The notes beneath the pieces were generated by a model, which was given only the letters and a program-made list of their open reading frames with translations, searched no databases and was not told the origin of the DNA. A stretch of 50,762 bases of DNA from Chloroflexota bacterium (lineage in GTDB: Bacteria > Chloroflexota > Dehalococcoidia > Bin125). Made by a program: the position numbers and the translations under genes. This document shows, in pieces, positions 18,718 through 50,762 of the stretch. Each line of letters starts with the position of its first letter. Position 1 is the first letter of the stretch. The stretch is taken from the NCBI GenBank assembly GCA_009838735.1, contig VXQZ01000051.1:2949-53710 (forward strand). Direction: 5' to 3'.

Positions 18718-18813
18718 CCGAACAGAACCGAACGCATCCGAACAGAACCGAACGCGATCTGCGCCTGAACAAGGCTGAAAAAACCCGAAAAAACCTGAAA
18801 GAACTTGAAACGC
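18718..18813 (+). repeat. Phased 10-bp repeat array 1
   Basis: Nine decamers in two blocks, four at 18718-18757 and five at 18764-18813, separated by six bases. The consensus is CCYGAAMARA. The first block alternates CCGAACAGAA and CCGAACGCRW, giving an exact 18-base direct repeat with a 20-base period (18718-18735 and 18738-18755). The second block has units such as GCTGAAAAAA and CCTGAAAGAA. The 10-bp spacing puts an A-tract on the same helix face at each turn. It points toward the membrane-protein gene at 18970. Possible roles are intrinsic DNA bending or cooperative binding of a protein. Confidence 0.7.
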
Positions 18814-18905
18814 AAGCGCGCGCAATTCCCTGCAAAACACTGGAAATCCGCAGCCGGACGACGTCCAGAAAAAAGTTTCCCGAAAACCTGAAATCGTCTC
18901 CGCGG

Positions 18906-49131: not shown

Positions 49132-50433
49132 TCAGTCGGCGGCGACGGTGAGGTCTTCGCCGGTTTTGGTGTCGACCTCGAAGGCAGACTTGAGGTCGAG
49201 CTCCTTCGCGATTTCGCGCGTTGCGGGGATGACTTCCTCTCCGAAGAGGCGCAGGGAGCGCATCGAGTCCTGGTGGGTCATCGCGCCGTCGCCGTCCCAG
49301 AAGAAGATTTGGCCGGGGCGGAGATACTCCAGCACGTGACGGATCTTGGGGATCACCGTTTTGGGCGTGCCCGTGATGATCGTCATGCGCTGCTTCTGGT
49401 CCTCGTAGGAGCCGAAGATGTCCGAGGCCTCGGGCTGTTGCTGCTCGCGGGCGGCGAGGGCGGCCTCGGCGGCGGCGGTCCGCCCGCGTGAAGCGGCGGC
49501 GGCGAAGTTCTGGATCGTGGGCAAGACATTGGTGCGGGAGGTCAGGCCGGGTAGATTCTGCAGGTTGGCCTTGACCACGCCCTGGTTGCCCTCGAGGAAG
49601 GGGTTCGAGGGGCCCTGCAGGTAGCGGCGGCCGGCTTCCTCGGCCAGCTCCTCGGTCTCGTCGACGTGGACCTTGAACAGGTAGCCGTGGTGCTGGGAAC
49701 CGGCCTCGTACCCGTTTTCCTGAGCGACTTCGTCGTAGTAGGCGAACGACTGCTTGGTCGGCTCGAGGTCGGTGGCGAGCATGACGTAGGGGTAGCGATG
49801 CTCGGCCGTCCACTTGACCGTGTTGCGGCTCATGATTCCGGGGATCCAGATCTGCGGGTGCGGATCCTGGATCGGACGCGACCAGGGGTTGACGTAGCGG
49901 AAGTTGTAGTGCTCGCCCTCCCAGCGGAAGGGGCCGGGCGTCGACCAGGCCTTGACGACGAAATCGTGCGCCTCCTGGAAGCGCTCCCAGTTGAAGGGCG
50001 CCTGGGCATTGTGCGAGACGGACTCGCGCCCGCCGCCGCGGACCCAGCCGGTGACCAGCCGGCCCTCGGAGATCATGTCGATCTGGGCGAGCGTCTCGGC
50101 CAGCCAGAGCGGATCTTCCCAGATCGGCAGGATGTTGCCGAGCAGGACGATTTTGGCCTTCTTGGTGATTCGCGCGAGGATCGCCGCCTCGACGTTCATC
50201 ACCGAGCCCATGCAGAAGGGCGTGGAGTGGTGCTCGTTGAGCATGAGCGCGTCGAAGCCCATCTCCTCGGCGTAGATCTTCTCGTCGAGGTAGCGGTGAT
50301 AGAGCTCCGAGCCGACCCGCGGGTCGTAGGCCGAGTTGGAGGCGTCGAGGTCGGTCAGGTCAAGTCCGGTGGCGCCGAAGAATCCGGTCTGGGGGTCCTG
50401 GTAGGGGCGTTCGGTGAAGTAGCCGATCAGCAT
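49132..50433 (-). CDS. Luciferase-like (LLM) flavin monooxygenase 3, long form
   Basis: A 433-residue LLM protein nearer the bacterial luciferase/alkanal monooxygenase branch than the two LLM genes above. Seen: MLIGYFTERPYQDPQTGFFG, EKIYAEEMGFDALMLNEHHSTPFCMGSV, KIVLLGNILPIWEDPLWLAETLAQIDMISEGRLVTGWVRGGGRES, PHPQIWIPGIMSRNTVKW and a C-terminal LRPGQIFFWDGDGAMTHQDSMRSLRLFGEEVIP. The EHH segment is typical of luciferase-like oxygenases. The frame continues about 97 codons upstream through low-complexity repeats, but ATG 50433 with AAGGA seven bases before it is the natural start. Operon with the Gfo/Idh/MocA gene. Confidence 0.9.
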   Translation of the reverse strand: MLIGYFTERPYQDPQTGFFGATGLDLTDLDASNSAYDPRVGSELYHRYLDEKIYAEEMGFDALMLNEHHSTPFCMGSVMNVEAAILARITKKAKIVLLGNILPIWEDPLWLAETLAQIDMISEGRLVTGWVRGGGRESVSHNAQAPFNWERFQEAHDFVVKAWSTPGPFRWEGEHYNFRYVNPWSRPIQDPHPQIWIPGIMSRNTVKWTAEHRYPYVMLATDLEPTKQSFAYYDEVAQENGYEAGSQHHGYLFKVHVDETEELAEEAGRRYLQGPSNPFLEGNQGVVKANLQNLPGLTSRTNVLPTIQNFAAAASRGRTAAAEAALAAREQQQPEASDIFGSYEDQKQRMTIITGTPKTVIPKIRHVLEYLRPGQIFFWDGDGAMTHQDSMRSLRLFGEEVIPATREIAKELDLKSAFEVDTKTGEDLTVAAD

Positions 50434-50762
50434 GGCGGAATCCTTGTCACTTCCAGGCAGTATCGGAAATCGAGAACGGGATTGCCAGCGTCGGACTCGG
50501 AGGAAATTCAGCCTGGGTGGGCAGAATGTGCTGTTCTGCGCTAGGGATTGTGCGCTTTTGTGTGCCGATTTGTCCAGATTTGTCCAGATTTGTCTGGATG
50601 GTTCCTGACTGGTCCGGATATCGAGAGGGTCGTTCCAGGGTGATCCAGGTGCGTGCAGTCGAACCCGGGTTGCGGCGCGGCCGTTGACATTGGGGGATGC
50701 CGGCTGGAGTCGCACATGAGGCATATTCGTGGGTAGTGGATATCGGCACTGCGGGGCTTGAG
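50434..50762. other. Intergenic region at window edge with repeats
   Basis: Leader region of the third LLM gene. No gene is supported; open frames on the minus strand translate the repeats. It contains the second decamer array (50548-50617). The last 100 bases show nothing that I can name. Confidence 0.5.
50548..50617 (-). repeat. Phased 10-bp repeat array 2
   Basis: Read on the minus strand, seven consecutive decamers lie 115-184 bases upstream of the LLM start at 50433. The best units are two identical CTGGACAAAT copies (50568-50577 and 50578-50587) next to CCAGACAAAT (50588-50597). Outer units such as CCGGACCAGT and AAGCGCACAA are more diverged. The consensus CYGGACAAAT resembles that of array 1 (CCYGAAMARA), and both read toward the downstream gene. 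No stem or dyad lies within a unit. Confidence 0.6.

Follow-up and report, generated by a model that had tools for sequence, protein, structure and literature searches.

Dispersed one-directional arrays of helically phased decamers in the intergenic DNA of a Dehalococcoidia genome, candidate sites for an oligomerising protein

BldC, a MerR-like protein of Streptomyces, forms a head-to-tail cooperative oligomer on direct repeats, which are variable in number, lie about one helical turn apart and give the complex a direction (PMC5859096). BldC sites are AT-rich and shorter than the arrays described below, covering about 30 bp at whiI and more at smeA (PMC5859096). The sites of ArcA, which governs a redox regulon, consist of 10-bp elements placed about every helical turn (11 bp centre to centre), with 2–5 or more elements per site and degenerate outer units (PMC3798270). 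In the excisionase/RDF arrays of phages and ICEs (Apl, RdfS), helix-turn-spaced direct repeats at one attachment site or switch are filled by an oligomerising winged HTH protein. To our knowledge, bacterial multi-repeat operators are normally few per regulon, and it is unusual for dozens of gaps in one genome to hold arrays that are long, strictly in phase and all of one direction.

Two decamer arrays occur in the stretch of DNA analysed here (the window, 50,762 nucleotides of a Chloroflexota contig), and their features are collected in Table 1. A preliminary description had read array 2 as seven minus-strand decamers, which are confirmed; from position 50617 downwards, they run CCGGACCAGT CAGGAACCAT CCAGACAAAT CTGGACAAAT CTGGACAAAT CGGCACACAA AAGCGCACAA. 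The three central units, near-identical to CTGGACAAAT, are unmistakable. TRF reports a period of 10 with 2.8 copies and 100% matches, and array 2 is the only site in the window for the two-unit motif CTGGACAAATCTGGACAAAT at up to 3 mismatches (0 of 100 shuffles). The two units nearest the gene are weak and are most readily taken as a CGCAC spacer leading to a decayed dyad, as in other copies, while two further units can be added upstream, beyond a 21-bp (2 x 10.5) step that shifts the register by one base and recurs in the family-wide profile. The orthologue of array 2 in genome G011 has CCGGACGAGT and CTGGACCAAT in place of CCGGACCAGT and CAGGAACCAT.

Table 1. Features of the two arrays and of the gene that array 2 faces (positions in the window).
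Feature	Position	Strand	Remark
Array 1, first word: CCGAACAGAA CCGAACGCAT CCGAACAGAA CCGAACGCGA	18718–18753	+	
Array 1, second word: CCTGAAAAAA-like decamers	18764–18810	+	
Dyad closing array 1, AATTCCCTGCAAAACACTGGAAATC	18824–18848	+	6 mismatches to family form
Luciferase-like monooxygenase (LLM) gene, target of array 2	49132–50433	-	Pfam PF00296; start codon at 50433, in accord with the LLM comparisons
Putative LLM promoter, TGGCAA-N17-GATACT	50459–50487	-	Promoter assignment inferred
GAATTTCC, resembling the A/T-rich tail motif 3' of the dyad in other copies	50502–50509	-	By eye
Decayed dyad closing element	50525–50549	-	Family register; similarity weak in the array 2 copy
Decamer array 2	50548–50617	-	Seven units readable, 135 bp upstream of LLM gene
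Weak units 6 and 7 of the preliminary description	50548–50567	-	Last half-unit and CGCAC spacer
Array 2 core, CCAGACAAAT CTGGACAAAT CTGGACAAAT	50568–50597	-	TRF and motif search
Degenerate upstream decamers CCGGACCAGT, CAGGAACCAT	50598–50617	-	G011 orthologue compared
Further degenerate units CTGGATCACC (50648–50639) and CTGGAACGAC (50638–50629)	50629–50648	-	Past the 21-bp step

Array 1 uses the word CCGAACANNN and then ACCTGAAAAA, which differ from the word of array 2, but the architecture is alike. It is a composite of decamers and dyad (18718–18848), and therefore arrays 1 and 2 are related. The link previously drawn between them thus holds as different words in one shared composite architecture.

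The arrays belong to a genome-wide family, as had been predicted. In the 3.15-Mb Dehalococcoidia (Chloroflexota) genome, the core pattern TTTGTCCAGATTTGTCCA at up to 3 mismatches gives 95 matches, which fall into about 40 arrays, and the reversed control pattern gives none; these genome counts rest on pattern searches and fetched stretches. Aligned on the core, the family shows conserved columns from about -75 to +95 (~170 bp), spaced constantly by 10 bp except for one 21-bp step. Array-bearing gaps have autocorrelation at 10, 20 and 30 bp, which is not seen in other intergenic DNA. The unit has the core YYGRACA, and the words seen are CTGGACAAAT, CCGAACANNN, TTGGACANNN, ACCTGAAAAA and AAAATTGACC. 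The longest arrays contain up to about 12 TTGGACANNN units, in which seven bases are constant and three are free. This pattern would be expected if one protomer occupied each turn, and not from copied tandem DNA.

The decamers are accompanied by other elements at defined distances. A dyad, GATCTCCAG-YAAAAC-ACTGGAGATC, takes the family forms GATCTCCAGYAAAACACTGGAGATC or GATCCTCAGTCCAGGACAGGAGATC and often closes the arrays at a fixed distance, with an A-rich tail about 25 bp past the dyad GATCTCCAGYAAAACACTGGAGATC. Dyad counts track array counts across genomes; the exception is G017, which has arrays and zero dyads. Upstream of the arrays, at 125–150 bp and on the same strand, lies the motif TACGATCAGAACATATG with a -10-like hexamer, for which the peak 50-bp bin (-150 to -101) holds 17 hits compared to about 0.16 expected. 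A coding repeat was rejected, as 40 loci have no consistent frame and stops lie close upstream. It is highly improbable that the arrays act simply as intrinsically bent DNA, in which the upstream DNA would be curved by phased A-tracts and the words would be incidental. Predicted curvature is indeed 4.4 degrees per turn compared to 2.4–2.5 in other intergenic DNA and shuffles, and the alternate words ACCTGAAAAA and AAAATTGACC are A-tract-like. However, the invariant part is GRAC rather than an A-tract, and the curvature of the 50-bp core barely exceeds that of shuffles (5.8 v 5.3).

The arrays have a strong bias in position and direction, which had also been foreseen. Among sampled arrays in fetched loci, 107 of 117 are intergenic, and the GRAC strand coincides with the coding strand of tandem gene pairs in 62 cases against 8 (27:0 for gaps of up to 400 bp); genes were called with a home-made codon-usage caller, the 8 exceptions lie mostly in long gaps where a gene was possibly missed, and the counts are partly non-independent because some sampled arrays are orthologous to each other. 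In divergent gaps, 19 of 24 arrays are directed at the nearer gene, and convergent gaps hold 13 of the 107 intergenic arrays. One of the convergent gaps, at the UDG locus (L294–L297 and L301), contains a conserved CATACAAT box and an array common to five species, which could be a small stand-alone transcript. A replication-oriented motif of the KOPS or Chi kind was rejected, as orientation flips within 15–20 kb on contigs C4, C31, C33, C35 and C41.

The downstream genes encode, among others, arginyl-tRNA synthetase, Mur ligases, LLM proteins, CoA-transferases and NADH-quinone oxidoreductase. No common pathway was found among them, and with targets this diverse a single regulon was rejected. 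The earlier suggestion of one oligomerising regulator or a nucleoid protein therefore stands as a possibility only in part: an oligomerising protein may be involved, but probably not one single regulator, because several decamer words exist. The genome itself yields 31 matches to the LLM protein of the window, which amounts to a large expansion of monooxygenases. Among species whose LLM genes are 96–98% identical, only two of eight have the array, and the putative LLM promoter is kept with or without it.

A rival reading is that the arrays work in RNA. A transcribed array would be an unstructured, C/A-rich leader or intercistronic stretch, whose spaced GRACA motifs are used by an RNA-binding protein, Rho or the ribosome. 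We regard this as rather unlikely for the family as a whole. It accounts for the absolute sense orientation in gaps of up to 400 bp, for the promoter-like motif upstream on the same strand, and for a sense strand with much less folding potential than its antisense counterpart (-40.6 v -59.7 kcal/mol per 170 nt). In addition, in the short operon gaps at sdhA-sdhB, sucD and efp, the array end abuts the start codon at only 13–41 bp, and therefore there is no space for a promoter 3' of the array; these gaps favour an RNA-level or neutral reading there. Against action in RNA, a register kept strictly at 10 bp, with a 21-bp step, across about 170 bp fits turns of DNA and not single-stranded RNA, and the putative LLM promoter of the window sits downstream of array 2. 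Moreover, stem covariation is absent at the dyad, where Watson-Crick pairs are no commoner than column composition predicts, and an RNA hairpin was rejected on this ground. A known RNA family was likewise rejected, with no Rfam match in the window and 5 array loci. Rho utilisation sites were judged by an excess of C over G, regularly spaced YC and a position downstream of genes, and were rejected, as C and G are equally frequent in CTGGACAAAT, a fixed YC dinucleotide is missing from TTGGACANNN, and divergent gaps hold 24 arrays.

The preliminary description had missed that the arrays are carried by a dispersed element whose insertions are polymorphic. In G000 and G011, an array-bearing segment of approximately 250 bp lies between the response regulator and kinase genes of an operon, and the same genes abut or overlap in G006, G014, G002, G005 and G001. 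This insertion is flanked by CTGA, which includes a stop codon, and no inverted termini were seen. At C24:89787, about 430 bp separate genes that stand 6 bp apart in G001. Comparison with G002 also shows an insertion of 779 bp at L066 (G000 C54, 6007–6784). A phage link was rejected: a 17-mer has 9 viral-contig hits, 8 of which are without a regular array of at least 3 units, and the other (L086) has a short array at a contig end.

Dispersal and insertion polymorphism are shared with a MITE- or REP-like repeat without host function, in which the decamers would serve spread of the element or arise by slippage and the orientation bias would arise because antisense insertions are purged from operons. 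Such a repeat is an unlikely explanation. Copies are up to 76% identical outside the core, they form discrete insertions between otherwise abutting genes, and tandem gaps with an array have a median length of 375 bp compared to 126 bp for other gaps. A second dispersed intergenic repeat, CTCTCCCCCCGCGAAGCGGGGGGAGATGCCGAAGGCAGAGGGGGG (CTCTCCCCC...), fills gaps that hold arrays in other species (L043, L163, L281, L317, L318). However, the core is better conserved than the flanks between copies, one gap can have different decamer words in different species, and neither a transposase nor terminal inverted repeats nor a convincing duplication of the target turned up. Orthologous arrays also persist, in up to four other species, and their conservation is phase-dependent. 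Over 31 orthologous pairs that are not mutually independent, the degree to which the degenerate flanks are conserved follows decamer phase strongly (0 of 2000 rotations), and the outer flanks have no such variation; with one pair per locus the effect is modest (82 of 2000). Because loci were picked by the core pattern, the identity of cores between orthologues is a biased measure.

The word changes between species at a fixed locus. In the gap 5' of one paralogous pair, CTGGACAAAT units occur in G000, G002, G005 and G006, TTGGACANNN in G013 and G014, a CTGAAC/CTGGAC mixture in G007 and G008, and CCGAAC units in G011, while G001, G009 and G012 have no units. Across the genomes, CTGGACAAAT is present in G000, G011, G002, G005 and G006. 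A tree built from the sdh region pairs G001 with G005 as sisters at full support, and G001 has no CTGGACAAAT match; the word is in G005 and the outgroups and is missing from G001, as if one cognate factor had been lost. A looser pattern, in which four GRAC follow one another every 10 bp, is common in most of the genus's genomes and in a single further genus of the family, a sister genus; it is nearly absent from the rest of the class. In G017, which belongs to another genus of that family, arrays reach about 14 CGAACANNN decamers with a small set of linker words (L179–L208), and near-duplicate arrays with their flanks occur at two places. Among named genomes, most exact-match relatives are Chloroflexota/Dehalococcoidia MAGs from the RHO series, RHO presumably denoting the sponge Rhopaloeides odorabile. 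Close relatives appear to originate from marine sponges.

The array family is not placed in any known operator or repeat family, as for none of the families tested could every defining feature be shown. Like BldC sites, the arrays are direct repeats with one-turn spacing and variable number, but they have a GRAC core instead of AT-rich sequence, extend up to 17 turns, carry a dyad and are dispersed as a repeat. They resemble sites of ArcA and the OmpR family in direct elements spaced by about 10–11 bp with degenerate outer units. However, their spacing is exactly 10 bp apart from the one 21-bp step, their targets are unrelated, and the array-adjacent OmpR-type regulator is not distributed as the arrays are. 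Compared to the Apl and RdfS arrays, the arrays here occupy about 40 chromosomal gaps rather than one site. With MITEs and REPs they share short, non-coding, intergenic, multicopy and presence/absence polymorphic copies, and differ in a tandem phased core conserved above the flanks and a fixed orientation.

Our preferred reading, held tentatively and at a little under an even chance, is a dispersed intergenic element that carries head-to-tail sites for an oligomerising DNA-binding protein and acts in cis on the gene to which it points. The element would measure about 170–270 bp and be limited to one genus of sponge-associated Dehalococcoidia, and array 2 would be one copy. Its core would be GRACA-centred decamers set head to tail on one helix face, often with TACGATCAGAACATATG upstream and the dyad at the end. 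Each decamer may bind one protomer, such that the protein would lay a directional filament along the array and tune transcription of the gene pointed at, with the dyad anchoring the filament end. Directional arrays, a non-hairpin dyad in fixed register, and seven constant with three free bases fit what an oligomeric winged-HTH protein would be expected to select, and BldC and ArcA offer precedents for sites of this kind, variable in length and spaced by one turn. Confidence is held at this level because the arrays 13–41 bp from a start codon may act on mRNA or not at all. No cognate protein was identified. The sole OmpR-family regulator with an array in its operon (G000 C37) does not track array presence and was rejected as the reader, as array-poor G009 and G010 have it intact and array-bearing G007 and G008 lack it. 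Its orthologue has one in-frame stop in array-poor G004 (L317) and G003 (L318).

A bolder proposal, possible though doubtful, is that of a portable cis-regulatory cassette, which spreads as an intergenic repeat and has its species- or lineage-specific word swapped per locus, tracking a fast-evolving and as yet undescribed family of filament-forming DNA-binding proteins. The words swapped at the same locus, on this proposal, are CTGGACAAAT, TTGGACANNN, CCGAACANNN and mixed CTGAAC/CTGGAC. The about 40 arrays suggest an undescribed family of dispersed sites coated by a repeating protein. With 40 sites, 15 related genomes, and locus-matched presence/absence and word swaps, one can study the co-evolution of an operator word with the protein that reads it. 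The array set also lets one ask whether dispersed repeats rewire transcription in uncultured sponge symbionts.
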